From Halalkalicoccus subterraneus (GTDB lineage Archaea; Halobacteriota; Halobacteria; Halobacteriales; Halalkalicoccaceae): DNA of 64,000 bases. The notes below the pieces were generated by a model. That model was not told the DNA's origin. It saw only the letters and a list, made by a program, of their open reading frames with translations, and made no database searches. The DNA lies in assembly GCF_003697815.1 (NCBI RefSeq), contig NZ_RDQG01000016.1, positions 62,001-126,000 on the forward strand. Reading direction: 5' to 3'. The position numbers and the translations under genes were made by a program. Every line of letters starts with the position of its first letter. Position 1 is the stretch's first letter. Shown here piece after piece: positions 10,853 to 40,780 of this stretch.

Positions 10853-11065
10853 GCCTTGTGCAACGGTCATCTCTCTGTGAAAGACAGCCGTTGCACAAGG
10901 CAGTGTCTGAGTAATCACACCGTGGTATGATATGCTCATGAAGGCAGAACCAGCGAATTTGTTTCTATTCCCTCTACTACTACACCAGGGTAAGGTTGTT
11001 CGGCATTGTGACTAGGAGAGGAGGGCGTGCGTGGAGTGGTTGGTTCGAACTATGCGCCCTCTTTT
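10853..11065 (+). repeat. Dispersed repeat copy R1 (truncated), with palindrome P3
   Basis: It starts with the best palindrome of the family, P3 (10853-10901, 14-bp perfect arms GCCTTGTGCAACGG / CCGTTGCACAAGGC). About 165 bp follow that match the repeats at 21.6 and 39.8 kb in the same orientation. Shared blocks include TGATATGC, GGCAGAACCAG, ACTACACCAGGGTA and TGTTCGGC, then CTAGGAGAGGAGGGC. Similarity fades near 11065, before the coiled-coil gene that the other copies carry. It lies between the amidase and the AT-rich catabolic module. Confidence 0.75.
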
Positions 11066-11312
11066 TGCTCACTGTTGACGCACTGGTTTCGAGAGTACTG
11101 CAGTAGTCTTTTTCTTAAGACAGAACACGCATTTTTCTCAGATATATAGATAAATTATATAGCTCACCGAGAGAGAAGTAGCTATGATGAACTGTCTCGG
11201 CCGACCAGGTATCGATCTCGTTTGGGACTCAATAAGCGGAATACGCCGCAGCCATGTGCGACGGATAACTGACGAGAATTATAGTACATTTTAGGAGAAA
11301 AACAACTCCTGA
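11066..11312. other. Intergenic, AT-rich
   Basis: Between the truncated repeat and a gene remnant. No gene; an A/T run around 11130-11170. Confidence 0.4.
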
Positions 11313-11570
11313 CCATCCGAAACCGACGACCGCCCCAACTATCCTGATTCGGGTCACAGCCCGGATCCAAGACCGTCGTTTTATCGATCAACCAACGACG
11401 AAGGTGGGCCGTGCGGTTCAGCGGCGATACCTGGAACCAAGTTCTGTCCTGAGCACCTTGGCCCTGCTCTTCCCAATGAGGAGCACGACTCGGATCCCGA
11501 CCCCGAACCCGAGCCGGAGCCGGAGAATTTCCCAGTGTGGAAGAGACAGCGCTGGAAGCTGAGCGACTAA
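11313..11570 (+). pseudogene. C-terminal remnant of a Cys/His zinc-motif protein
   Basis: An open plus-strand frame of 85 codons ends at TAA 11568-11570 and is preceded by an in-frame TGA at 11310, with no start codon between. It contains a recognisable zinc-binding pattern (PCGSAAIPGTKFCPEHL), then an Asp-Pro/Glu-Pro repeat (about 11490-11530) and a basic tail ending WKRQRWKLSD. It is GC-rich in AT-rich surroundings. It is clearly the 3' end of a gene whose front is missing; palindrome P4 begins 5 bp after the stop. Confidence 0.45.
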
Positions 11571-11575
11571 CTGAA

Positions 11576-11620
11576 CCTTGTGCAACAGTTGCCTTTCGAA
11601 ATCGCCGATGTTGCATAAGG
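11576..11620. repeat. Palindromic element P4 (CTTGTGCAAC family)
   Basis: Arms CCTTGTGCAAC / GTTGCATAAGG, one mismatch (C to T), 23-bp centre. It begins 5 bp after the stop of remnant 11313-11570. Confidence 0.7.
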
Positions 11621-11717
11621 ACATCGCTACCTTTGATTCTTTTTAATCGAAAATATCTTTAGTTAGATATTTTGCTAAACTGTTAATGATCTACAAGCGT
11701 CAAAGTGTTTTCTAAAG

Positions 11718-12392
11718 TTAACTAGGTGAGTGATCCATTTGAGTTGTATCCAAGTTAGGCTGTGGCGGTGAGGTCCTAGATTGTTTTTGATTCTCGAGTG
11801 CATCAGCTAGGAGTTTCGACTCTGCTTTTCGAAGATGTTCTAATGCTGTTGCTCGATTGATATCGAGTTTCTCGGCGAGCTCTTCACTGTTAATTTCACG
11901 TGGCCACTCAAAGTATCCGCTCTCGAGTGCACACTGGACAACCTCCAACTGGCGGTCCGTCAACTGTGATTCAGGTTCTGTGAATTTTGTAACCTTTCCT
12001 AGTGTTACCGTTCCAATTCGATCGAAATCTTTGATCATCGCTTTGAGATCCTCTCGGCGGAAAAATAGGACTGTATATACCCGTCGATTTGGATGAATAG
12101 AACTATTTCGACGAAGAATACAGTGATTCCGATCAATTGCAGAATAAGCACCACACGACACTTTTGTAACAAGATAACTATTTTCATCAAATTGATCGAC
12201 ATTTTTTACACTACTACATTTAGAAAAAAATTCTAAATGTTGCTGTCGTGGTTGGTCAATATTGATAACAAACGTGACTAAGTGGTCATGTAGCTCCTCG
12301 ATAGCGATATTAAATGATGTCTCGAAGTGTTCCGCAAAGTCGTCTAGTACGCACGACTTCTCCTGTTGTAATTGCAGTTCGGCTTGAAACAT
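11718..12392 (-). CDS. HTH-10 (bacterio-opsin activator-like) transcriptional regulator
   Basis: 224 residues. The N-terminal ~1-135 is a sensor-like region with no clear motif. The C-terminal ~143-196 is a canonical archaeal HTH-10 domain: LTDRQLEVVQCALESGYF, then the helix-turn-helix SEELAEKLDINRATALEHLR. Such proteins act as local activators or repressors in haloarchaea. The gene is 76 bp downstream of, and co-oriented with, the LeuA-type enzyme, so it is the likely pathway regulator of the 11.7-21.5 kb module. The Ser/Pro-rich C-terminal tail after the HTH is unusual but short. Confidence 0.85.
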   Translation of the reverse strand: MFQAELQLQQEKSCVLDDFAEHFETSFNIAIEELHDHLVTFVINIDQPRQQHLEFFSKCSSVKNVDQFDENSYLVTKVSCGAYSAIDRNHCILRRNSSIHPNRRVYTVLFFRREDLKAMIKDFDRIGTVTLGKVTKFTEPESQLTDRQLEVVQCALESGYFEWPREINSEELAEKLDINRATALEHLRKAESKLLADALENQKQSRTSPPQPNLDTTQMDHSPS

Positions 12393-12468
12393 CGGTTGCG
12401 TCCGCTAGTGTGATAATGACTCACTCACTATAAAAATTCCCCATGATCTATAGTTTGTATTCCCGCAA

Positions 12469-13563
12469 TTAGTTGTCCTCGAACGTTTGTGTTGCGAGGG
12501 CGAGTGCCTCGTTTTGATCGAGTGGGCCTTGTTCGGTGAGCAGAGTCCCAAATGTAGAGACTCGGTCCTCAGTTGGCTGAATATCTGCACGTTCAAGCAG
12601 CTTGCGTATCGCTGTTTTTCCGGTTGGTTTCCCGAATATAAGTTTGCGGATGCCACCGAATATAGCAGGATCGTACGGCTCAAGCGTTGCAGGATCACTG
12701 AGCATAGCTGCTGTATGAATTCCAGATTCATGTTCGGTTGTCTTCTCACCGAGTACAGCTTTTCGATCGTTATGCGTCTCCTCGAGTGTTGTAAGAACTT
12801 GTTTACAAGTGGGAGCAAGTTTAGTAGTTTCAATATCGAGATCGTCATTGAGATCAACGGCACAGGCAGCAACAACCTCTTCAAGTGCGCTGTTTCCTGC
12901 ACGTTCGCCGAGTGATGCGATGCTTACGTCTGCCTTTGCTACCCCAGCTTGATAGGCTGCCAGAACGTTCGCTGTTGCACATCCCAGGTCATCATGAAAA
13001 TGAACGCCAAGACGAGATAGATCGATATCGTCTTCGAGACTAGTAAGATACGATTCGACGGTTACTGGGGTTCGTGCCCCAACAGTATCAGCGAGAGTGA
13101 CTAAAGGAACGTCCGGAATTGTCTCAAAAACTTCTCGGATATTAGAATGATCAGTTCGGAATGCGTCTGCAAGAGTAACATGCGGTGTCACACCTCGATC
13201 AATAATGTACTCAATTGCCTCAGTAAGCATTGTCAGCATCTCTTCACGGCTGGTATCAAGGAGATGTTCGAGATGTCTATCAGAGACGGAGATAAAGGTC
13301 TCTACAATATCTGCATTGGCATCAACCGCTACGTCGATATCTCGTTCGAGAGATCGTGCAAGGGCAATGATTTTTGCGTCGGTTGTACCTGAAAGATCAT
13401 TGATAACTGTCTGATCTTTTTCGCCGGTCGCAGGAAACGCTGGCTGAATGTATGGTAGTCCTAGATCGTCTAGCATTCGTGCAGCTTCGATTTTTTGCTG
13501 TGTAGTATACTCGCGGCCAGGCATTTGGTCACCTTCACGAAGTGTCACATCATTTAGCATCAT
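12469..13563 (-). CDS. LeuA/NifV-type (HMGL-like) acyltransferase or 2-alkylmalate lyase
   Basis: 364 residues, a TIM-barrel of the pyruvate carboxyltransferase (HMGL-like) family. The catalytic strand NDVTLREGDQMPG is at 4-16, the metal-binding HFHDD near 194 and a LGERAGN loop near 220, followed by the SGIH region of the synthase type. It lacks the C-terminal LeuA allosteric domain, so it resembles homocitrate synthase in size. Family members join acetyl-CoA to a 2-oxoacid or catalyse related C-C cleavage. It overlaps the CoA-transferase gene (ATGA at 13560-13563), implying tight co-expression. With a CoA transferase and LeuCD-like hydratase nearby, cleavage of a CoA-activated 2-alkylmalate to acetyl-CoA plus oxoacid is the attractive reading; a synthetic role is the alternative. 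Confidence 0.85.
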   Translation of the reverse strand: MMLNDVTLREGDQMPGREYTTQQKIEAARMLDDLGLPYIQPAFPATGEKDQTVINDLSGTTDAKIIALARSLERDIDVAVDANADIVETFISVSDRHLEHLLDTSREEMLTMLTEAIEYIIDRGVTPHVTLADAFRTDHSNIREVFETIPDVPLVTLADTVGARTPVTVESYLTSLEDDIDLSRLGVHFHDDLGCATANVLAAYQAGVAKADVSIASLGERAGNSALEEVVAACAVDLNDDLDIETTKLAPTCKQVLTTLEETHNDRKAVLGEKTTEHESGIHTAAMLSDPATLEPYDPAIFGGIRKLIFGKPTGKTAIRKLLERADIQPTEDRVSTFGTLLTEQGPLDQNEALALATQTFEDN

Positions 13564-14777
13564 ATGACGTCAGTCTCCTCTAATTTTGCAAATTCTGCGT
13601 TGCTCATACCAAGTTCATTGAGATAGACGTCTTCATTATGTTCGCCGTGTCGTGGACCAAGAAACTCTACTTCACCGGGTGTCCGTGAGAACTTCGGAAT
13701 CGGAGCAAAGGTTTTAATTGAGCCAACATCTGGATCTTCGACCTCGATGATGCTATCGCGTGCTTGGTATTGTTCGTCTTCGAAAATATCGGCCATATCA
13801 TATACTGGTCCAACAATTGCGTCGTGTGCTTCAAAGACTTCAACCGCTTTGTCAGTGGTTCGTTGCTTTGTCCAGTCTTCGATTGCTTGATCGAGGACCT
13901 TAGCATTCTCAACGCGAGTTTCATTGTCGACGAATCGTGGATCGTTAATTAGCTCTGGTTTGTCAATTGCCCTAGCAACGCGTTCGAATGTTTTCTGATT
14001 CGAGGCAGACAGTGTCATATAGCCGTCCTCTGTTTCGTAGATATTTCGTGGTGCGGCTCCTGGATGTCGGTTGCCGGTTCGTTCCCGAACGTATTCCATC
14101 CGGTCGTAAGCCTCTACTTCTCCAAATCGAAGTCGCCAGAGTGGTTCAATCAGCGAGACATCGATTACCTGTCCCTCACCGCTCCCACCACGGCCAACGT
14201 CCCGTTCAAATATCGCCATCAATGTTGCTTGAAGTGCAAACTGTGCCGCTGTCAGATCAGCTAAACTGATCGGTGGCAAAAGTGGTTCTCTGTCAGGAAA
14301 GCCATTTGCATGCGCCCATCCTGAAATTCCTTCGGCGACAGTTCCAAAGCCCGGCTTTTCTGCCTTGGGCCCAGTCTGCCCGTACCCGGAAAGACGTACC
14401 ATGATCGCTTCCTCATTGACCGCATGCACATCGGTTGGTCCAAGGCCCCATCGCTCCATTGTTCCCGGCCGAAAATTCTCGAAGACGACGTCAGCATCTT
14501 TAATAAGTAGAAGAGCTATCTCTCGCCCTTCTTCAGATCCGAGGTCAAGCGTGATACAACGTTTGTTCCGACCGAGAGATTTCCACGACAGTGACTCACC
14601 GTTTTTAGCTTTTTGTGGCCATTCCCGGATTGAGTCTGGAATTTCAGGATGCTCAACCATAACGACATCCGCACCGAAATCGCCGAGCATCGTCGTTGCG
14701 AACGCTCCGCTGATCATCCCTGACATATCGATAACACGGAGCCCGTCCAATGGACCCGTTCGTTCTCTTGCTTCCAT
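13560..14777 (-). CDS. Family III CoA transferase (CaiB/BaiF)
   Basis: 405 residues, normal family length. Characteristic blocks are LGDFGADVVMVEHPE (~32-46), SLGRNKRCITLDL (~67-79), FENFRPGTMERWGLG (~99-113), SGYGQTGP (~130-137) and SLADLTAA, with the likely catalytic Asp174. These enzymes move CoA between carboxylic acids through an enzyme-bound acyl anhydride. It is transcribed just before, and overlapping, the LeuA-type gene. In bacterial itaconate and citramalate degradation the same pairing of a CoA transferase and a lyase is used; the analogy is inference, since the exact acid cannot be read from sequence. Confidence 0.92.
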   Translation of the reverse strand: MEARERTGPLDGLRVIDMSGMISGAFATTMLGDFGADVVMVEHPEIPDSIREWPQKAKNGESLSWKSLGRNKRCITLDLGSEEGREIALLLIKDADVVFENFRPGTMERWGLGPTDVHAVNEEAIMVRLSGYGQTGPKAEKPGFGTVAEGISGWAHANGFPDREPLLPPISLADLTAAQFALQATLMAIFERDVGRGGSGEGQVIDVSLIEPLWRLRFGEVEAYDRMEYVRERTGNRHPGAAPRNIYETEDGYMTLSASNQKTFERVARAIDKPELINDPRFVDNETRVENAKVLDQAIEDWTKQRTTDKAVEVFEAHDAIVGPVYDMADIFEDEQYQARDSIIEVEDPDVGSIKTFAPIPKFSRTPGEVEFLGPRHGEHNEDVYLNELGMSNAEFAKLEETDVI

Positions 14778-14966
14778 AGTGCTCTATGATACCAACATTC
14801 TTATGACGAAAGGCAGTTGCTCCACCGAGTGTTGGCTATTTATGTACTATCGCGCTTGTAAATGGATTTCTTATAGGGGCTTGAAGGTGTCCAGAGAGAG
14901 TGAATCACTGTGAAGCTGAACAAAAAGTAGAACAAAGAGAGATAATATAGTTTCATTAGATAATAA

Positions 14967-15839
14967 TTACTTTCCTGATGTAGAGTGCTCAAGAAGAGTA
15001 GCCGCGATAAGGAGTGTTGTTGCAAGCGTACCAATATTCTCGTGAAACGCACGAATGTGGGTTGCACACCTATCGATAGAGTGAGATTCATACCCAATCG
15101 ATCGTAGAGTCCGCCGGTGTGATCTATGATTTGATTTGGCTAGTAATGTTGTAGCATACTGATTTCGGATCCATCGTTCGAGCCGCCATTGGGAAGGAAC
15201 ACGATTGTAGGTAGCAAGCTGGATCGCAACGACTTTGGATAGAAACTCGGGATCCACAGCTAATGCCTGAAAGATTGTATTCACGTTAGGTGTACGGAGA
15301 GCAGTACGAAGGTCGTTATAAATATTAGAGATCTGTCTGTTGGCATCAGTCGGTGTGATTATTGGGAAATCCGGAGCAATAGGAATAGTAGTTTGAAGTC
15401 CCTCGTGGACTGCAGAAGGACGTAACTGTTCAGTATCATATGATTTTTCTAACAGATCTATCGATCCGTATTCCGTAGCCTCAGCGTGAGCCTTATGCGT
15501 ATACTGACCATCAAGACGATATCGACAGGCAGCAACTGATAATCCTAGCCGAAAGACTACAAATGAAAAGAATGGAACAACATTGTATATGTGTGGGTCA
15601 GGGACTGTTCGGCGATCAACAACACGTTCGATTACCTCTTTAACTGGTGTATGAAGTTGATCTCTCGTGGCTGCTGCGACATTCAAAGCGGCATCTTCGT
15701 TCCATTCTGCCAGTAGGATCTGTTTGGATTCTTCCCAGAGGAGTCGACGATACTCTGTGGGAATACTATCGATAGATAAATACGAGGGAACGAACCCAAG
15801 TATATCCTCGATTTCCTCGGTACTGTGTGCAGTGATCAT
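14967..15839 (-). CDS. DehI-like (haloacid dehalogenase family) protein
   Basis: 290 residues from ATG 15839 (ATG 15863 would add 8). Two similar helical halves are visible: IPTEYRRLLWEESKQILL near 27-44 and IYNDLRTALRTPNVNTIFQA with VDPEFLSKV near 180-210. This duplicated helical pattern matches haloarchaeal proteins annotated as halocarboxylic acid dehydrogenase DehI. Bacterial DehI removes halogen from both isomers of 2-haloacids by direct attack of water. The haloarchaeal relatives are of unproven function. It heads the minus-strand group and is divergent from leuC. Codon use is AT-rich like its neighbours. Family assignment moderate, substrate unknown. Confidence 0.6.
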   Translation of the reverse strand: MITAHSTEEIEDILGFVPSYLSIDSIPTEYRRLLWEESKQILLAEWNEDAALNVAAATRDQLHTPVKEVIERVVDRRTVPDPHIYNVVPFFSFVVFRLGLSVAACRYRLDGQYTHKAHAEATEYGSIDLLEKSYDTEQLRPSAVHEGLQTTIPIAPDFPIITPTDANRQISNIYNDLRTALRTPNVNTIFQALAVDPEFLSKVVAIQLATYNRVPSQWRLERWIRNQYATTLLAKSNHRSHRRTLRSIGYESHSIDRCATHIRAFHENIGTLATTLLIAATLLEHSTSGK

Positions 15840-15977
15840 ATATTTCGATACTTTCCACAACAAATAGCTGTTCGTTTACTACCGTTAGATATCTCTTGGA
15901 GAAATCCTGCTATAGTAATTAAAGTACCAACGTTGATTGGGGAAAACCTCATCGTCCTATCTGTAGAGTTATGTGCT
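15840..15977. promoter_or_regulatory. Divergent promoter region of the catabolic module
   Basis: 138 bp between the DehI-like gene (minus) and leuC-like (plus). It is AT-rich with several TATA-like runs in both directions (for example TAGTAATTAAAG around 15914). An upstream GTG (15825) in the leuC frame would overlap the divergent gene and looks non-coding, so the region is read as regulatory. The HTH-10 regulator is the obvious candidate to bind here. Confidence 0.4.
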
Positions 15978-17234
15978 ATGCCAACAATTGCCGAAAGTAT
16001 TCTCTCTAAACAGCTGGGAGCTCCTGTGGAGCCGGGCATGATTGAGAAATTTCCGGTTGACTTTGCATTTGGGCATGATATGACACTCCCAGCAGCGATC
16101 AAAGAGTTCAATGAGCTCGGGGTCGGTAGCGTATTCGATCCCGATGCTATCGCCGTTATACCGGATCATTTGATCCCGCCACATAATGAACACGCTGCTG
16201 AGCTTTATTCTACATGTGAAGCATTTGCTGAAGAGCATGGTACGATTTTCTACCCGCAAGGAAGGCAAGGGCAAGAGCATGTTGTTATCCCAGAAGATGG
16301 TCTCGTGAAACCAGGCGACGTCGTCGTAGGTGCTGATAGTCACACTTGTACTGAAGGGGCACTAGGAGCGTTCGCTGTCGGTGTTGGAAGTACGGATCTT
16401 GCTTTTGCAATGGCGTTTGGCTGGCTGTGGCTGCGAGTTCCTGAGACAACACGGGTCAATTTCACTGGTAAAATAGGCGAATGGACCGAACCGAAAGATC
16501 TCGTATTAGCATTGCTGGCTAACATCGGCGCAGATGGCGCTGTCGGTCATGCACTAGAATTCGGTGGCGAGACAGTTCGGGCTCTCGATATGGACGGTCG
16601 GCTCACCCTCTCGAATATGGCTATCGAAGCAGGTGGTGCGACGGGGATAGTTGAGCCTGATGCCGTGACAGAACAGTATGCTAATGAACGTGTTGATGAA
16701 GATTTTAAATTACATACCCCTAAACACCCAACATATGAACAGAAAATAAAAATTGATTGCGAGAATTTGGAGCCACAAATTGCAATTCCAGAAAGTCCGG
16801 CAAATGTCGTTCCAATCTCGGATACCAGAGTTTCCGACATCGAAATTGATCAAGCAGTAATTGGCTCATGTACGAATAGCCGTAAGCGTGACCTTCAGAT
16901 TACTGCGGCTATCCTTGAGGACCATTCGGTTGCTACAGGAGTGCGACTTATTGTAACACCTGGTTCACAGCGCCTTGAAAGACGTGCTATCCGCGAGGGA
17001 TGGACGGAGACGTTCCTCAAAGCTGGAGCAACGATGGAGAATCCAGGGTGTGGTGCATGCTTCGGAATGCGGACAGGCGTTCTTGATGAAAACGAGGTTG
17101 CTATCTCAACGACCAATCGAAACTTTCCAGGCCGAATGGGTGACCCAACTAGCGCAGTCTATTTGGCTAGTCCAGCAGTGGCCGCAGCAAGCGCAGTTAC
17201 AGGACGAATTACACATCCTCGAGAGGTGATATAG
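15978..17234 (+). CDS. Aconitase-family large subunit (LeuC/HacA-like)
   Basis: 418 residues from ATG 15978, the length of archaeal homoaconitase/isopropylmalate isomerase large subunits. The 4Fe-4S ligands are Cys298 (GSCTNSRK) and Cys358/Cys361 (NPGCGAC); the substrate-loop motif is GADSHTCTEGALGAF at ~118-132. The enzyme performs stereospecific dehydration/hydration of hydroxy-di/tricarboxylic acids together with the small subunit that follows immediately. It sits outside any leucine-biosynthesis operon and next to CoA-transferase and LeuA-type genes, so it is a catabolic or specialised homolog. Substrate not determinable from this subunit. Confidence 0.93.
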   Translation: MPTIAESILSKQLGAPVEPGMIEKFPVDFAFGHDMTLPAAIKEFNELGVGSVFDPDAIAVIPDHLIPPHNEHAAELYSTCEAFAEEHGTIFYPQGRQGQEHVVIPEDGLVKPGDVVVGADSHTCTEGALGAFAVGVGSTDLAFAMAFGWLWLRVPETTRVNFTGKIGEWTEPKDLVLALLANIGADGAVGHALEFGGETVRALDMDGRLTLSNMAIEAGGATGIVEPDAVTEQYANERVDEDFKLHTPKHPTYEQKIKIDCENLEPQIAIPESPANVVPISDTRVSDIEIDQAVIGSCTNSRKRDLQITAAILEDHSVATGVRLIVTPGSQRLERRAIREGWTETFLKAGATMENPGCGACFGMRTGVLDENEVAISTTNRNFPGRMGDPTSAVYLASPAVAAASAVTGRITHPREVI

Positions 17235-17729
17235 ATGGGACAAGCGTTCTGCTTTGGTGATGATATTGATACAGATCAGATTATTCCTGCACAGCACATC
17301 ACGTCTGCAGATCCGACTGCACTCGCCGATCACTGCATGGAAGGTGCAGATCCAACGTTTGCCGACTGTGTCACACCAGGAGATGTGCTCGTGGCTGGGA
17401 GTAATTTCGGCTGTGGTTCCTCGCGTGAACACGCACCATTGGCGATTCTCGGAACTGGTGTTGATGCAGTTATTGCTGAATCATTTGCCCGGATTTTCTT
17501 CCGAAACGCGATCAATATCGGCCTCCCAGTTTTGACGGTCTCGGATGCAACCGATCGCATGACTGCTGGCGATGATGTGGAGGTCCATATAGAAGACTAC
17601 ATCGTGGAAAATAGAACGACTGACGATCAAATGGAGATCAACAATTATCCCGACTTCGTTAATGAAATCATAGAGGCGGGTGGGTTGATCGAATACGGAA
17701 AGACTCTGTCTCAATCAAATACTCGTTAA
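17235..17729 (+). CDS. Aconitase-family small subunit (LeuD/HacB-like) with atypical specificity loop
   Basis: 164 residues starting directly after the large-subunit stop. It carries the family core [12 protein letters not shown] (9-20), [13 protein letters not shown] (56-68) and [15 protein letters not shown]. The flexible loop right after IIPA reads QHITSADP, whereas characterised archaeal small subunits have a YL-type loop: YLRT in homoaconitase and YLVY in isopropylmalate isomerase of Methanocaldococcus. Tyr-Leu replaced by His-Ile suggests a different substrate. The gene is co-transcribed with the large subunit and probably reads toward the ABC importer, though a terminator-like hairpin intervenes. 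Confidence 0.93.
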
Positions 17730-17818
17730 GGCTTGGCGGTACTACCAAGCACAAGCATCAAGGAAGCAGTGGCTTGGAGAATTCATTGACCTTCTGAGGA
17801 CTTGAGGACTTAAACCGA

Positions 17819-17841
17819 CCCACCAATAGTGGGGTGTTTTT
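17819..17841 (+). terminator. Hairpin with T-tract after the aconitase genes
   Basis: The stem CCCAC/GTGGG with a 5-nt loop is followed by GTGTTTTT. It may end, or attenuate, transcription between leuD-like and the importer operon. Stem is short; moderate support. Confidence 0.4.
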
Positions 17842-17948
17842 GTAGATGTACTCGCTCAGAGAGTCTTATTCTGATTCATATACTATTAATAGGCCCTACA
17901 CTGGTTGGTAGAAGAATCATAATCAATCGTCGATTGTGATAGACTACC

Positions 17949-19028: not shown

Positions 19029-19066
19029 TTGACTCTAAGAACATCACTCACCAAAACAAATTAAAA

Positions 19067-19936: not shown

Positions 19937-20730
19937 GTACGGAATCGCGTCTCACGCTTCCAATATCGACGTTGAGTTGGCGCCAACGAGTGAGTATAGT
20001 ACAAATCCTAGTCATCGGATCAATTCTCGCATTTATTGAGTTTGCACCACAGTATGGCCTAGTTGATCCCACGACGCTAATTCCGCTGAGCGAGATGGTT
20101 AGCGAGCTGCTTGACCTGTTGTTCGCAGGTGTACTGACTCCCCATATTATCCAGACCTTCACCGCAGTGTTTGGTGCTTTCTTGCTTGCTATTCTTACTG
20201 GCCTTCCAATCGGAATCTTACTATGGCGAATTAGTACACTGAAAGAAATTATGGATCCATATTTGCTAATTTACTATGCAATTCCTTTCTTTGCTTTCTA
20301 CCCTCTTTTGATCAGTATTATGGGAATCGGGATTATGCCAATTCTGACCATTGCATGGGGATTTAGTGTTGTTATTATAATCACTAATACTGCATCCGGA
20401 CTTGATGAAATTCCAGAAGTATATGTTAAGGCAGGTAAAGATATGAACCTTAATTCGCGGCAGTTACTCCAACACGTCTACTTTCCTGCAGCAGTTCCAT
20501 ATGTTTTCACAGGACTAAAACTAGGATTCATCTACGCCTTGATTGGGACGATTGCAAGCGAATTTATCCTTGCCGAGAATGGATTAGGTTGGTTAATTTC
20601 ATACAATTACAACAATTTTGACGTTCAAGGAATGTTCGCAGCAATGTTGTTAGTTATTTTACTAGCTTTATTCGTTAATGCAGTGTTAGCATCTATTGAG
20701 AATCGTCTCTACAGGAGGGTTCAAACATGA
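19933..20730 (+). CDS. ABC importer permease 1 (SsuC-like)
   Basis: 265 residues with about six hydrophobic segments. The EAA-type cytoplasmic loop that docks the ATPase is recognisable around VKAGKDMNLNSRQLLQHVYF with the downstream P-x-VFTGLKLG. Start and stop overlap both neighbours (ATGA), giving a tightly coupled ATPase-permease-permease unit. The two permeases probably form a heterodimeric channel. Confidence 0.93.
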   Translation: MSTESRLTLPISTLSWRQRVSIVQILVIGSILAFIEFAPQYGLVDPTTLIPLSEMVSELLDLLFAGVLTPHIIQTFTAVFGAFLLAILTGLPIGILLWRISTLKEIMDPYLLIYYAIPFFAFYPLLISIMGIGIMPILTIAWGFSVVIIITNTASGLDEIPEVYVKAGKDMNLNSRQLLQHVYFPAAVPYVFTGLKLGFIYALIGTIASEFILAENGLGWLISYNYNNFDVQGMFAAMLLVILLALFVNAVLASIENRLYRRVQT

Positions 20731-31787: not shown

Positions 31788-33841
31788 TGCTGGCTGATTC
31801 GGAGGTTTCCGTACTCGTCGATGCGACACGTCTGATTCGGGTGGATGAGCGTCGTACACGCCGGTTCCTCGGCAATCGCCGGCCCGTCGAAGCTCGACTC
31901 GGTCGGCAGCGACGATCGGTCGTAGATCCGCGTCTCGTGGCTCCCTTCCGCGCCGAAGTCGACAAGCCGAACGTCTCTCCGTGCGTCCGACGGCTGTCCA
32001 CCACGATCGAGGACATCGATGGTCGGTTTCGGCACGTCCGCCGTCGCAGTGAGCCGGAGGTTCACCATCTCGACGGGATCCTCGAGTCGGAAGTTGTACG
32101 CCTGCTTGTGAAGCCGGTGGAACCGCTCGATCGTTTCCTCGATCGCGTCGGCGGTGAGCCGTGCGCGCTCGGCCTGGATCGGCGTCTGTACCGTGTGTTC
32201 CTGGCCGTCGTACCGGAGGTCGACGCTACGTTCGATGGTGATCTCGTCGGCCAAGACGCCTTCCGCGGCGAACGCCTCGCGGGCACGATCGGCCATTGTC
32301 GCGAAGGCGTCGTCGACCGTTCCGGCCGCAGAGGCTTCGAACGGCCGGACGAACGTCCGGACGTAATCCCGACGCAGATCCGTCAACAGCATGCCCCACG
32401 CTGAGAACTGGCCCGGTGCACGGGGGACGATCGTCTCTTTGACGCCCAGTTCACGCCCGAGCGTGGCCGCGTGGAGCCCGCCCGCGCCGCCGCTGGCGAC
32501 GAGAGCGAACTGACGGGGGTCGTACCCGCGTCGGAGGCTCACCTGCTTCAGGGCGTGTGCCATGTTCGAGTTGACGACCCGGAGAATGCCGTGGGCAGCC
32601 TCGCGGACGCTCGTCCCGAAGGTGTCGGCGACGGACTCGAGGGCTGACTCGGCCTGATCGACCTCGAGTTTCATCTCGCCACCAAGAAAGTACTCCGGAT
32701 TGAGCCGCCCGGTAACGAGGTTCGCGTCTGTGACCGTTGGTTCGGAGCCGCCGCGACCGTAGCAGGCCGGCCCTGGATCCGCGCCTGCACTCCTAGGACC
32801 GACGTTAATCGAGTCACCCTTGTCGATCCACGCGATCGAGCCGCCGCCGGCACCGATTTCGACGATATCAACCACCGGAATCTGGACCGGATACCCCTCC
32901 TCGCGAGCGGAGCTCTCAAGCCAGTATTCGGTGTTGATATCGACTTCGCCGTCCTCGACGAGCGACGTCTTCGCGGTAGTCCCGCCCATGTCGAAGCTGA
33001 TCACGTCGGGCTCGCCAACGCGCTCGCCAACTCGAGCGGCACCGAAGACACCCCCAACTGGACCGCTTTCGATCATCTCAATTGGGCTCTGTCGGGCCTG
33101 ATCGAAACTGCTCGTGCCGGCGTTGCTCTTCATTACGTACCGGTTCCCGTCGACGCCGTGTTCGTCGAGGTGGGACTCGAGGACTGTTAGATAGTTATCG
33201 GCAATCGGCTGGACGTAGGAGTTCAACACCGCAGTGTTGGTGCGTTCGTACTCCCGATACTCCTCCGTGAGTTCATGAGAAAGCGTGACGTAGGCGTCCG
33301 GAAATTCTTCGGCGATGATCTCTCGTGTTCGACGTTCGTGTTCCGGATTCGCGTACGCGTTGAGGTACGCGACGGCAATCGTCTCGATCCCTCGGTCGCG
33401 GATCTCGTCGACGGCCTCGCGAACGTCGTCCGGTTTGAGGGTCGAGAGGACGCTCCCGGCCTGGTCGACACGCTCTCGGACTTCGAAACGGTCGCGTCGA
33501 GGGACGAACGGCTCCGGTTTTTCATACCGAAAGTTAAACATGTCCGGTCTATTCGCCCGGGTGATATCGAGGACATCGCGAAATCCATCGGTCATGATGA
33601 GCGCACAGGGCTCACCGTCACGCTCCGTAATGGCGTTGATCACTACGGTCGTGCCATGGACGAACTGTTCGATGTCAGGCAGCGATAGGTCGCTCATCGA
33701 GAGTGCATCGACGACACCATCAGCGTAGTTCGCTGGCGTCGTCGAAGCCTTCTCGAGCGATAACGATCCGTCGTGGACGGCGACCAGGTCGGTAAACGTT
33801 CCCCCGATGTCGACCGCGACACGTGTGTTATTAACACTCAC
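31784..33841 (-). CDS. hyuA: Hydantoinase/oxoprolinase A subunit (HyuA), copy 1
   Basis: 685 residues from GTG 33841, which gives the expected start SVNNTRVAVDIGGTFTD; ATG 33886 would add 15 residues not typical of the family. The actin-like ATP site is seen in VDIGGTFTD, DMGGTTAKTS and GAGGGSIAWID. The central SGPVGGVFGAA and the GGAGGLHA near the end are also diagnostic. It uses ATP to activate the ring amide, which HyuB completes. First gene of the hyuA-hyuB-racemase-oppABCDF run on the minus strand. Confidence 0.93.
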   Translation of the reverse strand: MSVNNTRVAVDIGGTFTDLVAVHDGSLSLEKASTTPANYADGVVDALSMSDLSLPDIEQFVHGTTVVINAITERDGEPCALIMTDGFRDVLDITRANRPDMFNFRYEKPEPFVPRRDRFEVRERVDQAGSVLSTLKPDDVREAVDEIRDRGIETIAVAYLNAYANPEHERRTREIIAEEFPDAYVTLSHELTEEYREYERTNTAVLNSYVQPIADNYLTVLESHLDEHGVDGNRYVMKSNAGTSSFDQARQSPIEMIESGPVGGVFGAARVGERVGEPDVISFDMGGTTAKTSLVEDGEVDINTEYWLESSAREEGYPVQIPVVDIVEIGAGGGSIAWIDKGDSINVGPRSAGADPGPACYGRGGSEPTVTDANLVTGRLNPEYFLGGEMKLEVDQAESALESVADTFGTSVREAAHGILRVVNSNMAHALKQVSLRRGYDPRQFALVASGGAGGLHAATLGRELGVKETIVPRAPGQFSAWGMLLTDLRRDYVRTFVRPFEASAAGTVDDAFATMADRAREAFAAEGVLADEITIERSVDLRYDGQEHTVQTPIQAERARLTADAIEETIERFHRLHKQAYNFRLEDPVEMVNLRLTATADVPKPTIDVLDRGGQPSDARRDVRLVDFGAEGSHETRIYDRSSLPTESSFDGPAIAEEPACTTLIHPNQTCRIDEYGNLRISQQ

Positions 33842-34094
33842 AAGAAGCACACAATTCGGAGAATGTATTAAACCTTCTGCCACCAAATTTCCTCTATATT
33901 ATTTATTTCGACCATAATAAGTTGGTAAATAATTAAGAAGGTAGATTGAATAACACATCAAGGAACAATACCTCGACGATTCGTCCACTCACTATTCACG
34001 GCGCATCCTTGCTCTCATCGGGCCCGCTTTCACAGTCTGTGTAACGAACGAAAGCCATCCACAAGATGCCACGACCGTGCTCCGAATAAGATTC
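33842..34094. promoter_or_regulatory. Upstream region of hyuA copy 1
   Basis: An AT-rich segment at 33885-33950 with TATATTATTTATTT-like sequence about 45-65 bp before the GTG start (minus direction) is the best promoter candidate. 33960-34090 has no ORF; nothing else seen. Confidence 0.4.
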
Positions 34095-34427
34095 TCAGAG
34101 ATCGCCAAGGACTACGTAGACGAGTCGAACCGGTTCATCGGTCGTATTCTCGCTATAGTGCTCGATCCCCGATGGAATGATAGTCACTGATTCCGGACCG
34201 ACGGTGGTGCGTTCTCCTTCCGCGACGAGATCAATCTCGCCCGACAGGATAACCGAGATTTCGTCTCCGGCGTGGCTTGTTGTCCCGGTCTCCGGAACGC
34301 GCTCGTCCGATTCGATGACGTAACTACCGACCTCCGCGTTCGGATCATCACTCTCGAACAGCGCGAACGGGTCGTCGCGGCTTTCGTTCCAGATCTCCTC
34401 AAGTCGGTGAACGGTAACGTCGCTCAT
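34095..34427 (-). CDS. Small cupin-domain protein
   Basis: 110 residues from ATG 34427. A single cupin barrel is visible: SHAGDEISVILSGEIDLVAEG (motif 1; His and Glu present but the second metal His replaced) and IIPSGIEHYSENTTDEPVRL (motif 2 with GIEHYSEN). Small cupins bind a metal and act as isomerases, dioxygenases or sensors. It lies between the two divergent hyuA genes, so it probably belongs to the same pathway; its precise reaction is unknown. Confidence 0.85.
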   Translation of the reverse strand: MSDVTVHRLEEIWNESRDDPFALFESDDPNAEVGSYVIESDERVPETGTTSHAGDEISVILSGEIDLVAEGERTTVGPESVTIIPSGIEHYSENTTDEPVRLVYVVLGDL

Positions 34428-34613
34428 GCCGAAGCCAATAGCGGCTATCAAAGTAAACTCTTCGGGCGTGTGGTTTGACGATAAGTACTAAAGAGATGCA
34501 CTATACATCCACTACGTTACTACTCCTTTTCGATATGGGCAAAGGGAGAAGATTTCAGCACAAATTATATTACGATACTCTTCCTCAGTCAGCGTACTGA
34601 GGTGCGATAACAC

Positions 34614-36650
34614 GTGACAGAAAGACTTGCAGTTGATATCGGTGGCACGTTCGTCGACGCAATCACATTCGATCGATCAACCCGTGACGTCACGGTCGAG
34701 AAAGCATCGACGACCCCAGACGAACCCGAATCCGGCGTTCTCTCCTCGATCGAAAAGGTCGGCACGACCCTCGAGGATACCGAGGCGTTCGTCCACGGGA
34801 CGACGTTGGGGCTCAACGCCGTCCTCGAACGCGAAGGAGCCGCGACCGGCATCATCACGAACGAGGGGTTCAAAGACGTCTACGAGATCGGCCGGACAAA
34901 CGTCGAGCGGGAATCGATGTACGATATCCGGTACCAGAAGCCGGAGTCGATCGTCGCCCGACGGCGACGCGTCGGCGTCCCCGGACGGTTAAACGCCAAC
35001 GGCAAGGAAGTCGAGCCGCTCGACGACGACGCTATCAGGGATGCCGCGGCACAGCTCATCGAGGACCAAGATGTCGACGGGATCGCCGTCTGTTTCCTCC
35101 ACTCCTACCGGAACCCCGCTCACGAACGAGAAGCCGCGCGGATCGTCCGCGAGGCCTATCCCGACGTTAGCGTCTCCATCTCGAGCGACATCACTCGGGA
35201 GTACCGCGAGTACGAGCGGACGAGCACGGCCGTGATGGACGCGTATATCAAACCCATCTTTGAGACATACATCGATAGCCTCGATTCGGAACTGACCGAC
35301 GAGGGATTCAACGCACCGTTTTTCGTCACCCGGTCCGGCGGCGGTACACTCACTGCCGACAGCGCGACCGATGCACCAGTCCACACCATCCTCTCGGGAC
35401 CTGCCGGCGGCCTCATCGGGGCGTCTAACGTCGGCCGCGAAACCGGCCGGGACGATCTCATCACTGTCGACATGGGCGGGACCAGCCTCGACGCCTGCGT
35501 CATCGAAGACGGCACGCCTGCCGTCAAGTACGACTCCCGACTCGAACACCAGCCACTGATGATCCCGGTCTACGACATCCGGACAATCGGTGCCGGCGGC
35601 GGCTCGATTGCGTGGCTCGACGGCGAACTCCTCAAGGTCGGGCCACAGAGCGCGGGTGCGGACCCGGGACCCGTTGCGTACGGGCACGGCGGCACCGAGC
35701 CGACGGTCACTGACGCAGCCGTCGCACTGGGCTACATCGATCCCGACGACTTCCTCGGCGGCGATATGGAGCTCGACGCCGACGGCGCGAAAGCGGCGAT
35801 CGACAAGACGCTCGCCGAACCGCTCGATTCGAGCGTGACAGATGTCTCTCGCGGCGTCTTCGACGTGACGCTCGCGAACACCGTGGGCGCGATCCGAGAG
35901 ATCACTATCGAGAAGGGACTCGACCCACGGGAGTTCTCGATGATGGCCTTCGGCGGTGCAGGACCCATGTTCGTGCCGCTTTTAGCCCGCGAGATGGGCG
36001 TCGAAGAAGTCGTCGTCCCTAGAGCCCCCTCGGTCTTCTCGGCACTTGGAATGCTTATGGCCGACGTCGTCTACGACTTCGCGCGAACGAACATCGAAGC
36101 CCTGATTGACCTCGAACTCTCGGATCTGGAGACGACGTTCGACGAACTAGACACCGAGGCGCTCGAGACCCTCACCGACGAGGGGTTCGAGGAGGACGAA
36201 GTCGATCTCGAGCACACCCTTGAGATGCGCTATCTCGGGCAGGAACACACCGTTGAAGTGGATGCCAACGGCATTGAGACAATCGACGAGGTCAGCGATC
36301 GCTTCGAGGACAAACACGAGGATCGGTACGGCCACGCGATGGACGATCCACCGGAGGTCGTCCACCAACGGGTCCGCGCCATCGGCCGCAACGATAAACC
36401 TCCGCTCGAGCGCGAGGAGCCGGTCGACGGGACGCCCGAGCCGATCGGGAGCCGGGAGGCGTACTGTTTTGCGGCCGACGAACGGACCGCGTTCGACGTC
36501 TACGACCGCAGCGACCTGCGTTCAGGAATATCAGTCGACGGCCCAGCGGTCGTCCGGGAGCCAACCACAACCATCGTCTTCCACTCGGACCAGGCTGCAA
36601 CCGTCGACGAGTACGGACAGCTCGTCATCAGCGGAGGTGACGCTCAATGA
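34614..36650 (+). CDS. hyuA: Hydantoinase/oxoprolinase A subunit (HyuA), copy 2
   Basis: 678 residues from GTG 34614. ATP-site motifs LAVDIGGTFVDA, DMGGTSLDAC and GAGGGSIAWLD, plus SGPAGGLIGASN and AFGGAGPMFVPL, identify HyuA. It is clearly diverged from copy 1 (for example TFVD for TFTD), so this is not a recent duplication. AT-rich TTATATTA 45-55 bp upstream is a promoter candidate. Its stop overlaps hyuB copy 2 (ATGA). The two HyuA sets, divergently arranged around the cupin, probably act on different cyclic amides. Confidence 0.93.
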   Translation: MTERLAVDIGGTFVDAITFDRSTRDVTVEKASTTPDEPESGVLSSIEKVGTTLEDTEAFVHGTTLGLNAVLEREGAATGIITNEGFKDVYEIGRTNVERESMYDIRYQKPESIVARRRRVGVPGRLNANGKEVEPLDDDAIRDAAAQLIEDQDVDGIAVCFLHSYRNPAHEREAARIVREAYPDVSVSISSDITREYREYERTSTAVMDAYIKPIFETYIDSLDSELTDEGFNAPFFVTRSGGGTLTADSATDAPVHTILSGPAGGLIGASNVGRETGRDDLITVDMGGTSLDACVIEDGTPAVKYDSRLEHQPLMIPVYDIRTIGAGGGSIAWLDGELLKVGPQSAGADPGPVAYGHGGTEPTVTDAAVALGYIDPDDFLGGDMELDADGAKAAIDKTLAEPLDSSVTDVSRGVFDVTLANTVGAIREITIEKGLDPREFSMMAFGGAGPMFVPLLAREMGVEEVVVPRAPSVFSALGMLMADVVYDFARTNIEALIDLELSDLETTFDELDTEALETLTDEGFEEDEVDLEHTLEMRYLGQEHTVEVDANGIETIDEVSDRFEDKHEDRYGHAMDDPPEVVHQRVRAIGRNDKPPLEREEPVDGTPEPIGSREAYCFAADERTAFDVYDRSDLRSGISVDGPAVVREPTTTIVFHSDQAATVDEYGQLVISGGDAQ

Positions 36651-38443
36651 GCGACGCGACCACTGCTGACGAGATCGACGCCGCCACGGTCGAAGTGGTG
36701 CGCAACTATCTCACGTCCGCCGCGACGGAGATGCAACGGACGCTGATCAGGACGGCGTACAACACGATCATCTATGAGATTCTGGACTTCGGGATCTCGC
36801 TGTACGATCGAGACCGCAACCTGATCGCGGACTCGCCCGGACTCGCGCTGTTTCTCGGCGCGAACGACTACGCATTAGAGAAGGTTGTTGAGCACGTCGG
36901 CGAAGAAAACATGAACCCGGGCGATGTGCTCCTAATGAACTACCCTTACTGGAGCTCGACGCACACGCTTGACGTGGGCGTGTTCGCGCCGATCTTCCGC
37001 GAGGGCCCGGAGGTACCACGAGAAGAGAACGAACTCATCGGCTACGCGGCCACACGAGCGCACTGGCTAGACCTCGGTGCGAAAGACGAAGGGTACGTCC
37101 TCGACTCGACTGACGTTCACCAGGAAGGCATGATATTCCCGGGGACGAAAGTGTACAAAAGGGGCAACCCCGACGAGGAGATTCTGGATCTGATCCGGTT
37201 TAATTCCCGTCTTCCAGACAAGGTTCTGGGCGACCTCAACGCCCAAATCGCCGCGATCCGAACCGGCAAACAGCGGCTGCAGGAACTCCACGGAAAGTAC
37301 GGCGGCGAGACCGTCGACACCTGTATCGAGCGCATCCAGAGCCATGGCGAGCGAACCGCCCGTGATGCCGTACGAGAACTGCCGGACGGGACGTGGTCTG
37401 CGGTCGACTACGCCGATGGGACGACGGGCGATCTCATCCGAATCGAAGTCGAGGTGACCATCGACGGCGAGGAGTTTCACGTCGACTTCTCCGGTTCGTC
37501 CGACCAGGTCGACGAGCCGCTGAATATTCCTCGGGGAATGACCGAAACCGTCTGCAAGCTCTGTTTCAAATCGATCACAACGCCCGAAGAGACCTCGAAC
37601 GCCGGCCAATACGCGCCGCTGTCGGTTCACGCACCGGAGGGTAACCTCTTCAATGCGAGCTATCCCGCGCCGACGTTTACGATCTGGACCGGTATCGTTA
37701 GCGTCGACGTCGTCTTCAAGGCGCTGGCGAAGGCAATGCCCGACCGGATCCCCGCTAGCTCCGGTGGCGATCTAAACGACGTCATGCTGTTCGGCGAGGA
37801 TCCTGAAACGGGCCGACAGTTCGTCGAGGCCAACAACGACGCCGTCGGCTGGGGTGCAACGGACGAACACGACGGGGCGAACTCGGTGATGCACATCACC
37901 GAGACGATGGTGCAGAACATCCCCGTCGAAGTGTTCGAAAACAAAGCACCGATCTCGTTCGACGAACTCTCCTTGCGCCAAGACTCCGGCGGTGCCGGCG
38001 AACAGCGAGGCGGGCTGGGACTTCGACGCGACTACCACGTCGAGCATCCGGTCGGTGCGCTCTCGATCATCCAGAAGACGCGCAAACCCGGGTGGGGAAT
38101 CGATGGAGGCGAATCCGGAGCGAAAAACGGCATCGTCCTCGACCTCGACGACGACGCTGATGACCGTATCCAGGTCCTCGTCGACAACACTGATATTTAC
38201 GATGACGACGAGCTATGGGTTGGGATGTTCCGCGGAACGTTCCACGAGGGCGAGGTCATCTCCAACCGCACCGGTGGAGGCGGCGGCTACGGCGATCCAC
38301 ACGACCGAAATCTCGAGGCTGTCCTCGAGGACGTGATCGACGGCTACGTCTCACGGGAGTCGGCCCGTGAGGACTACGGCGTCGCGATCACCGATGACGG
38401 CGAGCTCGACCGCGAAGAAACCGAACGGCTCAGGTCGGAGTGA
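36647..38443 (+). CDS. hyuB: Hydantoinase/oxoprolinase B subunit (HyuB), copy 2
   Basis: 598 residues, translationally coupled to hyuA copy 2. Family blocks are EVVRNYLTSAATEMQRTLIR, DVLLMNYPYWSSTHTLDVGV and AGEQRGGLGLRRDYHVE, with the C-terminal NRTGGGGGYGDPHDRNLE. The motif MNYPYWSSTH replaces the usual NDPYxGGTH, a noticeable difference from copy 1 (NDYHGGTH) in the likely active-site loop. Only 16 bp separate it from the peptidase gene. Confidence 0.92.
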   Translation: MSDATTADEIDAATVEVVRNYLTSAATEMQRTLIRTAYNTIIYEILDFGISLYDRDRNLIADSPGLALFLGANDYALEKVVEHVGEENMNPGDVLLMNYPYWSSTHTLDVGVFAPIFREGPEVPREENELIGYAATRAHWLDLGAKDEGYVLDSTDVHQEGMIFPGTKVYKRGNPDEEILDLIRFNSRLPDKVLGDLNAQIAAIRTGKQRLQELHGKYGGETVDTCIERIQSHGERTARDAVRELPDGTWSAVDYADGTTGDLIRIEVEVTIDGEEFHVDFSGSSDQVDEPLNIPRGMTETVCKLCFKSITTPEETSNAGQYAPLSVHAPEGNLFNASYPAPTFTIWTGIVSVDVVFKALAKAMPDRIPASSGGDLNDVMLFGEDPETGRQFVEANNDAVGWGATDEHDGANSVMHITETMVQNIPVEVFENKAPISFDELSLRQDSGGAGEQRGGLGLRRDYHVEHPVGALSIIQKTRKPGWGIDGGESGAKNGIVLDLDDDADDRIQVLVDNTDIYDDDELWVGMFRGTFHEGEVISNRTGGGGGYGDPHDRNLEAVLEDVIDGYVSRESAREDYGVAITDDGELDREETERLRSE

Positions 38444-38459
38444 CCGAGACCAACGGCAC

Positions 38460-39581
38460 ATGATCGACGAAACCGTTATTCAAACCCGACTCAAGCGGGC
38501 CCGCGAGGCGCTGAACGACACAGGAGCCGACGCCATCGTCTGCTTCCCGAGTTCGAACATGTACTACCTCTCGGGGTTCGACGACGAGCCGATGGAACGT
38601 CATTTGTTCCTGTTCGTCACGCCCGAGACGGCGTTATTCGTCGCGCCCGAAATGTACGACGCACAGATCAAAGACGAATCGCCCATTACGGATGTCCGTA
38701 CGTGGGGCGACATCGAAGACCCGACAGCGCTCCTCGAGACGGTCGGCGACGAACTCGGGCTCGAAGGCGGCCACCTGCTGGTCGACGACCGTATGTGGGC
38801 TCTGTTTACCCAGGATCTCCAGGCAACGTTCCCCGAGGCTTCGTTCGGCATTGCAAGCAAGGTGCTCGAGAACCTTCGGGTTCGGAAAGACGAGGCTGAA
38901 CTCGATCGACTCCGTGAAGCGGCACGACTTTCAGACACGGTCAGCAAGGAGATTCGCGCGCTTGGTGCAGGTGCGATCGGAATGACCGAACGCGAGCTCG
39001 CGGCCGAGATCGGGGATCGACTCGCCTCGGCCGGCGGCGAGGGCGTTTCCTTCGAGACCGTCGTCGGCTCTGGCCCGAACGGAGCCCGACCACACCACCG
39101 CCACGGCGAGCGCACGATCGAGTCGGGCGACCCCGTCGTCCTCGATTTTGGCACTTGGTTCGAAGGCTACCCCGGCGACCAGACCCGCACCGTCGTGTTC
39201 GACGGCGAGCCGTCCGCGAAGCTTCGCGAGGTTCACGAGGCCGTCCTTGAGGCCCACAACGCCGGTGTCGAAGCCGTCGAACCGGGTGTGGAAGCCCGCG
39301 AGATCGACCGCGCCGCCCGTACGGTGCTCGAGGATCGAGGTTACGGCGATGCGTTCATCCACCGAACGGGCCATGGGGTCGGACTCGATGTCCACGAGCC
39401 ACCGTACATCACAAGCGAGAATGGTCGCAAACTCGAGCCGGGAATGGTCTGTAGCGTCGAACCCGGCGTCTACCTTGAGGGCGAGTTCGGCGTCCGTATC
39501 GAGGATCTGGTCGTTGTCACCGAAGACGGCTATGAGCGGCTGAACGACTCACCACGGACCTGGCGACCGCTCGACGAGTAG
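38460..39581 (+). CDS. M24-family Xaa-Pro peptidase/dipeptidase
   Basis: 373 residues from ATG 38460 (the frame extends further up into hyuB but is not coding there). The N-terminal creatinase-like domain is followed by the pita-bread domain with all five metal ligands: Asp229 (VLDFG), Asp240 (GDQTR), His305 (GHGVG), Glu334 (SVEPG) and Glu348 (RIEDL). M24 enzymes cleave X-Pro bonds or related amides such as creatine. It closes the hyuA2-hyuB2 operon, so the imported compounds may contain proline-like or modified amino acids. Confidence 0.93.
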   Translation: MIDETVIQTRLKRAREALNDTGADAIVCFPSSNMYYLSGFDDEPMERHLFLFVTPETALFVAPEMYDAQIKDESPITDVRTWGDIEDPTALLETVGDELGLEGGHLLVDDRMWALFTQDLQATFPEASFGIASKVLENLRVRKDEAELDRLREAARLSDTVSKEIRALGAGAIGMTERELAAEIGDRLASAGGEGVSFETVVGSGPNGARPHHRHGERTIESGDPVVLDFGTWFEGYPGDQTRTVVFDGEPSAKLREVHEAVLEAHNAGVEAVEPGVEAREIDRAARTVLEDRGYGDAFIHRTGHGVGLDVHEPPYITSENGRKLEPGMVCSVEPGVYLEGEFGVRIEDLVVVTEDGYERLNDSPRTWRPLDE

Positions 39582-39789
39582 TAGAGAGGATCGGACTCGA
39601 AGCGTTCCGTCGAGCGGTATTTCTTTTTGTCTGAGGTAAACCGTGCGAGCGCTCGAATTGTTCGAGAATGAATACAGTGACCGAGAGCGTCAATCAGCCA
39701 CACCTCGTTGCAGATACGTAATTCGAGAAAATGCGGGCTGTTACAAAATAGTTAGATAGTACTGCTTCAAGGGTTCTGCTCATCAGAGT
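39582..39789. other. Intergenic after the peptidase
   Basis: 208 bp; no gene, no strong hairpin. It marks the right edge of the Opp/Hyu module. Confidence 0.4.
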
Positions 39790-40780
39790 CTTGTGCAACG
39801 ATGCGCCTTCTAAGATAGGGTAGGTTGCACAAGGCAGTGTCTGACTAATCACACTGTAGTGTGATATGCGTCCGAAGGCAGAACCAGAGAAGCCGTTTCT
39901 ACACCCTCCACTACTACTACACCAGGGTACGGCTGTTCGGCGTTGTCACTAGGAGAGGAGGGCTTGCCCGGGGTAGTTGTCGTCGACTATGCGCCTTCCT
40001 CTTGGTCCGTTGTTATGACATCACGCTTCCTACGGGGGTTGCTCGATATCCCGATCACAACGATCGTGATAGCGGTCGGCTGCCTCCTCGTCAACGACCA
40101 CGAGCTTCTTGCCCCGACGTTTCGTCTGTTCGACGTCGTCTTTGCCGAGTTTCTCAAGGAAGTCCATGACACGGGCTACAGTCTGCATGTGTGGCTTCGA
40201 TCCTTCAACGGCGTGATGACCTTCGTAATCGTCCGACTGTTCAACACGAGCCCAGCAGGCGCTTTGTCGGCGTAGTCACGCACGTCGCGGGCAATGAACC
40301 GGGCGCGTATCTGGTTGGTCGTGAGTTCGCGATCCGCGATATGTTCCGGAAGGGCGCAGATGCGCTCGAGCGGAGTATCGGTGTCGTGTGACTCCGTCGT
40401 ATCCGTCTCCACCCCAGCGGTTCGGTTGTTAGATGTGGCCTTCTCCACGTCGTCGAGTCGACTGTGGGCTCGATCAGCGTTCTCTGTCGTGCTTTGCAGA
40501 ATCGATCCCACAGGAATCCCAGCGATCCAGATATCTGTGAGGCCCGCGGTGTCCCTATCTGAGTTGACCTCGATGCGCTCGACTTCGGCTTCGAGCTCCT
40601 CAACGCGGTCGGTGAGCGTTTCGAGCTGTTCGTAGACCGATTCGAGGGTCTCGGGTCGTCGGTCATTGTGGGCTGGTCGGTGGCGGTACTGTCGGTACTC
40701 GTTGTGGTTTCAGTCATTGGAAATGCGGTGTGTCGCGAGTGGGACGATCAGGCCCGTCTCGTAGCTAGCAAACGATTCGA
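39790..40780 (+). repeat. Dispersed repeat copy R3 (longest), with palindrome P5
   Basis: It begins with palindrome P5 (39790-39833, perfect 10-bp arms CTTGTGCAAC / GTTGCACAAG, 24-bp centre). It continues with an 18-bp palindrome (39848-39865, ATCACACT GT AGTGTGAT), the shared blocks TGATATGCG, GGCAGAACCAG and TACTACACCAGGGTA, and then the coiled-coil pseudogene. The sequence just beyond the pseudogene start (about 40718-40780, including TCAGGCCCGTCTCGTAGCTAGC) also resembles that upstream of the 980-1873 gene. It therefore links the repeat family with the intact cassette. Confidence 0.8.
39993..40717 (-). pseudogene. Coiled-coil family paralog 3, broken by two frameshifts
   Basis: It starts at ATG 40717 with TETTTSTDSTATDQP, like the 980-1873 protein (TDATTTASIATDQP). 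A frameshift near 40655-40665 is needed to enter the coiled coil (ETLESVYEQLETLTDRVEEL). The frame continues through IWIAGIPVGSILQ and ICALPEHIADRELTTNQ. A second break lies near 40212, where GGCGTG stands for the GGCCGTG of copy R2, a one-base loss. Beyond it the other frame carries on matching R2. Both breaks should inactivate the gene unless they are sequencing errors. Confidence 0.7.

Follow-up and report, generated by a model that had tools for sequence, protein, structure and literature searches.

In single-protein plasmid partition systems such as pSK1 Par, a protein with DNA-binding and coiled-coil parts is paired with a cis site close by, and there is no ATPase. In genomic islands at the 3′ ends of tRNA genes, a complete gene stands at one end and same-orientation 3′ fragments of it are found on the far side. 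In the Rep-Arvir replication module of the betapleolipovirus SNJ2, whose origin has been tested by experiment, ORF19 is followed by about 210 nt that end in an essential hairpin (PMC13107129). In Haloferax volcanii, near-identical direct repeats (sod1/sod2) recombine, pHV4 integrates via ISH18, and replicons split and fuse, which provides an experimental precedent for single crossovers at direct repeats (PMC6063281).

In this study, we show that a 64,000-nucleotide stretch of DNA from Halalkalicoccus subterraneus (hereafter the window), which appears to be part of a plasmid or plasmid-like contig, contains one damaged (R3) and two broken (R1, R2) copies of one gene with a downstream DNA site. 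We consider it likely that R1-R3 are copies of a plasmid-maintenance cassette, and that cargo is joined or removed by homologous crossover between direct copies. The resemblance to H. volcanii lies in direct repeats with unique flanks that recombine, with excision or fusion and exchange of flanks. However, a metabolic gene or an insertion sequence serves as the repeat there, whereas here the repeats are putative maintenance-cassette relics, many per replicon, polar and one-sided. The likeness to Rep-Arvir is one of layout: in both, on haloarchaeal plasmids or viruses, conserved noncoding DNA follows the gene and has a hairpin at its end. By profile matches, the endonuclease domain and MarR-like winged helix of Rep-Arvir stand in contrast to none recognised here, and the present protein, a coiled coil with a small C-terminal domain, is much smaller (220-260 aa). 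The tRNA islands share the complete gene at one end and the same-orientation 3′ fragments on the far side, but here the main ORFs from R1 to R3 include no integrase, there is no fixed crossover point, and the target is a protein-coding plasmid gene. The cassette may also be likened to pSK1 Par, with the coiled coil N-terminal in the present protein and with DNA binding and centromere activity putative.

Repeat copies and catabolic modules in the window

The sequence-only reading had described three copies of one repeat in a single orientation, and all three were found where it placed them, on the minus strand (Table 1). R2 and R3 are 86% identical over an 83-nt noncoding block and 87% identical over two coding stretches (179 and 153 nt), and R1 has the noncoding block alone in common with R3 (80-84% identity). 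R1, taken earlier for a truncated repeat, does hold this block but has no coding part at all. The coding matches agree with the placing of R2 and R3 in one coiled-coil gene family; the R2 open reading frame (21770-22258) is nevertheless a deletion derivative in which the last part of the zinc-ribbon-like gene, which lies upstream, is fused to the sequence for the coiled-coil protein's C-terminal domain, and the R3 gene is frameshifted, with one base missing near 40213 relative to R2, which has an extra base. The R3 locus extends to about 42816, beyond the end at 40780 given before, and a divergent paralogue sits between its frameshifted coiled-coil gene and its zinc-ribbon-like gene. A fourth related locus, a divergent two-gene cassette oriented as R1-R3, is found at 980-2719.

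Table 1. Repeat copies, PAL hairpins, modules and related genes in the window
Feature	Position	Strand	Remarks
Fourth cassette, coiled-coil protein	980..1873	-	N-terminus common (62% over 50 aa); C-terminal domain different
Fourth cassette, zinc-ribbon-like gene	2036..2719	-	40% identical to that of R3
Further PAL site	7249-7290
Further PAL site	7971-8012
PAL hairpin adjoining R1	10854..10900	.	CCTTGTGCAAC-N-GTTGCACAAGG
R1 relic	10904..11077	-	Noncoding 3′ block only; hairpin 7/8 pairs (one mismatch)
R1-R2 module	11078..21609		Regulator, HMGL-like, CoA-transferase III, aconitase, NMT1/ABC importer; GC 0.46
R2 relic	21610..22258	-	Noncoding block and C-terminal coding part; hairpin degenerate, 5/8 pairs
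R2-R3 module	22260..39789		AsnC-type regulator, Opp-type transporter, two hydantoinase A/B pairs; GC 0.585
PAL hairpin adjoining R3	39791..39832	.
R3 noncoding 3′ block	39838..40012	-	Hairpin intact (one pair swapped on both sides vs family consensus)
R3 coiled-coil gene	40013..40717	-	Frameshifted near 40213
3′ region of divergent paralogue	41005..41232	-	Two TCACA...TGTGA hairpins
Divergent coiled-coil paralogue	41233..41895	-	Intact, 220 aa; 33% identity over C-terminal 102 aa, E 1e-16
R3 cassette zinc-ribbon-like gene	41892..42638	-	87% identical to H. jeotgali plasmid 2 protein

The R2-R3 module also holds an Asp/Glu racemase family protein and an M24 peptidase. The compositional edges of the window are real, since GC content differs block by block (0.55 on the left, 0.46 in R1-R2, 0.585 in R2-R3, 0.60 in the R3 locus and 0.47 to its right); the two modules are thus compositionally distinct (0.46 vs. 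0.585), as had been proposed. Scanned against Pfam, the main ORFs from R1 to R3 gave transport proteins, catabolic enzymes and regulators, in keeping with the earlier remark that no transposase or integrase is seen there; no IntI-type or other integrase was found among the main ORFs of the region scanned.

Two further observations concern the surroundings of the copies. A second short repeat adjoins R1 (about 11101-11272); it is matched at 71-78% by several Halalkalicoccus contigs and is oriented like the local coiled-coil copies in most of the places listed. To the right of R3 (44283-59570), an Eco57I/MmeI-like methylase-type protein, an AAA/PHP protein and a STAND-type NTPase are suggestive of a defence region.

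Anatomy and distribution of the cassette

Read in gene direction, the full unit consists of a zinc-ribbon-like gene, the coiled-coil gene and a noncoding block ending in a hairpin. The encoded protein, 220-235 aa long in the complete Halalkalicoccus unit, has an N-terminal coiled coil and a small conserved C-terminal domain. A hairpin of the type TCACA...TGTGA occurs at +142 to +208 downstream of the gene in 23 of 27 family members, its pairs are exchanged between members (e.g., TAACG...CGTTA), and the mean longest downstream stem is 6.8 compared with 5.0 ± 0.2 in shuffled sequence. Many Halalkalicoccus loci end in a second, separate hairpin, PAL. Searches of Pfam, PHROG and NCBIfam gave no match to the protein beyond the coiled coil and recognised no endonuclease domain in it, and no Pfam family covers its C-terminal domain. 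This domain is given no fold here because structure prediction for five sequences was confident for the coiled coil alone and weak for the C-terminal part (mean pLDDT 60.6), and the working label "winged helix" was left unconfirmed by the same predictions. Solved structures searched by sequence yielded generic coiled coils only, Rfam gave sub-threshold matches only for two loci that contain the noncoding block, and none of the viral contigs searched carries the protein family.

The family is dispersed in Halalkalicoccus: 98 copies or fragments, a set defined by the contigs examined, some of them covered in part, were mapped mostly on plasmid-like contigs. With R3 as query, 26 places were found at E ≤ 0.001 in the whole genome of the window, far above chance, and the genus-wide search was positive in six of seven Halalkalicoccus genomes, with 0-36 places in each of the others. 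In other haloarchaea of several families, the coiled-coil gene is mostly single per genome or plasmid, and gene and hairpin together are usually single-copy on small plasmids; outside the genus, the plasmid hosts are Halomicrobium (4.5 kb), Haladaptatus (17.6 kb), Halorubrum, Haloarcula, Haloquadratum and Natrinema. A 21.5-kb Haladaptatus record has two places and looks like a near duplicate of one unit. The 4.5-kb Halomicrobium plasmid gave no Rep-like Pfam match, and a CopG-like protein is its sole recognisable Pfam family. The "element that carries this gene" invoked by the sequence-only reading is therefore better read as the plasmids themselves, the gene being mostly a single-copy plasmid gene and not a transposon gene.

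The coiled-coil gene and its hairpin probably form a plasmid-maintenance cassette, acting in replication or partition. We propose this role because they are usually single-copy on small plasmids, including the 4.5-kb one without a recognisable Rep, and the reading draws on this distribution and on the conserved architecture. The role is worded as putative because the likeness to Rep-Arvir is one of layout, with a much smaller protein and no recognised endonuclease domain. The GC skew of three small plasmids was also considered as evidence of an origin and was uninformative, being confounded by gene direction.

Junctions, module edges and polarity of the copies

The clearest junctions are seen in H. 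jeotgali (strain B3). On plasmid 2, copies at 257201 and 273139 flank about 16 kb of catabolic genes (SDR, aldehyde dehydrogenase, symporter, amine oxidase and dimethylformamidase-type genes). On plasmid 1, this block is absent and a single, doubly truncated copy is present at 211536. The left side of this copy corresponds to plasmid 2 copy 257201 (flank 93.5% identical over 5.2 kb, exact left truncation) and its right side to copy 273139 (flank 93.6% over 1.4 kb, exact right truncation), as expected for homologous recombination between direct repeats. The mosaic core of the plasmid 1 copy has many private differences, and the crossover can be placed within the shared core and not more exactly. 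A module absent from one replicon, with a single copy left at the joint, was what the sequence-only reading had suggested looking for; plasmids 1 and 2 provide it, and similar arrangements occur in other replicons. In the genome of the window, a complete copy on contig C85 directly precedes a module whose plasmid 2 counterpart comes after the truncated copy 257201; identity between the two climbs from about 80-88% to 97-98% within the repeat. A comparable pair, contig C56 and contig C17 of H. paucihalophilus, switches near the end of the noncoding block. In the three cases examined, the crossovers lie at different points within the repeat. Among 53 copy pairs with a common flank, for which the control was not matched for repeat dispersal, one pair has both flanks in common and 16 copies match different partners on each side. 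Such patterns are what single crossovers between homologous direct repeats would give.

Simple misassembly of the plasmid 1 and plasmid 2 junctions appears unlikely. The plasmid 2 record (NC_014299), in the region of positions 1-44688 and at its end, has problems of this kind: cloning-vector-like polylinker sequence stands at both of its ends, and the whole of plasmid 4 is included at 100% with a terminal duplication of 213 bp; because of the vector-like ends, a reading of plasmid 4 as a captured plasmid was set aside as a probable assembly artefact. The junctions used here lie elsewhere, and the compared flanks differ by about 1-7%, which argues against misassembly. Plasmids 1 and 3 of H. jeotgali (NC_014298, NC_014300) are identical over their first 20,677 bases, which is either real sharing or an assembly artefact.

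These comparisons indicate that recombination between copies moves modules in the genus, in at least one well-resolved case. The earlier proposal that modules are joined or lost by recombination thus stands for the homologous pair of the family in H. jeotgali and does not extend to an observed event in the window: no empty site for, and no intact homologue of, the R1-R2 or R2-R3 module was found in six other Halalkalicoccus genomes. Gain or loss of the window's own modules is not observed because these genomes hold no intact counterpart; a history of recombination is nonetheless most likely for them.

Over all copies, the tie to module edges is only slightly stronger than that of intergenic points. 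The idea that repeats sit at GC steps is true in the window but marginal genome-wide (mean contrast 0.041 vs. 0.035, with 11 of 300 randomisations as high). Synteny-block ends at masked copies numbered 52 against 26.5 ± 5.3 under rotation, about twofold, and synteny breaks were found at 43 of 98 copies against 31.7 ± 4.5 for intergenic points. In an initial breakpoint test the copies were left unmasked, and its result (90 vs. 19.6) was discarded as inflated by the repeat itself.

Synteny breaks are marked better by PAL, a hairpin of the general form RCCTTGTGCAAC-N(19-26)-GTTGCACAAGGY whose loop is hypervariable and at times inverted relative to the flanks. The genome of the window has 43-45 sites, six of seven Halalkalicoccus genomes have 5-50 each, one family relative has 4, and the other Halobacteriales sampled have none. 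No consistent IS-sized pairs were found that would make PAL the ends of an insertion sequence, and its arms do not fit the core consensus of integron attC sites. It is conceivable, though unlikely, that PAL (RCCTTGTGCAAC-N-GTTGCACAAGGY) is the true joining site of the modules and the coiled-coil repeat a passenger, given that 19 of 68 PAL-only sites lie at synteny-block ends (within 60 bp; 9.0 ± 2.8 for intergenic points) and that PAL adjoins the noncoding block in 20 copies. The well-resolved junctions, however, switch within or at the edge of the repeat and not at PAL, and by the exact pattern PAL is missing at R2 and at 5 of the 12 complete copies.

The copies are strongly polar, 89 of 98 being in the majority orientation of their own contig (random expectation 63.6 ± 3.0, maximum 75 in 20,000 simulations). 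They are also one-sided: of the relics in the same orientation within 110 kb of a complete copy (twelve such copies), 43 are found on its 3′ side and 1 on its 5′ side, a count for which some contigs were examined in part and against which the whole-genome list contained no contrary strong matches. Relics decay, in that every one of the twelve complete copies has a fully paired hairpin (R3 owing to a change in both arms), as against 18 of 52 other copies with a recognisable hairpin; three of these 18 represent the lone copies on plasmids 3 and 4, that of plasmid 4 being counted twice owing to the plasmid 2 record. Same orientation, a complete gene at one end and 3′-type fragments on its 3′ side would also be produced if, in the manner of tRNA islands, integration were site-specific and targeted the gene's 3′ end, with an integrase inserting cargo that supplies a new 3′ end and old fragments being left beyond. 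We regard this as quite improbable, since fragment ends vary from copy to copy, identity switches at differing points within the repeat, relic hairpins decay and the main ORFs between R1 and R3 include no integrase. Repeated transposition of a mobile element with the coiled-coil gene, its copies unrelated to module traffic, would account for many dispersed copies but is very improbable, as the constant ends and the transposase (main ORFs between R1 and R3) expected of an insertion sequence, MITE or composite transposon are not seen, truncation occurs at many points, orientation is polar and the gene is mostly single-copy on plasmids of other families.

Proposed mechanism and its significance

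Under homologous crossover between cassette copies, the functional unit would be the coiled-coil gene, a putative cis-acting hairpin about 140-210 nt downstream and, in Halalkalicoccus, the zinc-ribbon-like gene upstream, and one working copy would be needed per replicon. An incoming circle or plasmid with a copy would recombine with the resident copy by a homologous single crossover, because the copies have several hundred bases in common, and its cargo would come to lie between two same-orientation copies; the reverse crossover would delete the cargo and leave one copy. If the circle carried a 3′ fragment only, the crossover would rebuild a complete copy beside the upstream genes and the fragment would land beyond the cargo, on the 3′ side. 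Fragments would pile up on one side and then decay, and crossover with 3′ fragments would therefore give one-sided, same-orientation arrays without a dedicated enzyme, an explanation suggested by the pattern itself. We infer the direction of each event, the circles as intermediates (no circle was observed), the maintenance function and the arrival of the window's modules by this route.

It is doubtful that the cassette is a new haloarchaeal replicon type with the downstream hairpin as its origin; replication that starts at one copy and stops at the next one in the same orientation would then free the intervening DNA as a circle. If so, a multi-copy megaplasmid could lose and take up catabolic modules through the enzymes that replicate it.

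Crossover between copies of the putative maintenance cassette may provide haloarchaeal megaplasmids with a route to gain or lose whole catabolic modules without an obvious transposon, and the polar relic arrays would be a readable record of past events. The unannotated coiled-coil gene with its 3′ hairpin, kept across several haloarchaeal families and present also on plasmids without a recognised Rep, is a candidate replication or partition locus.
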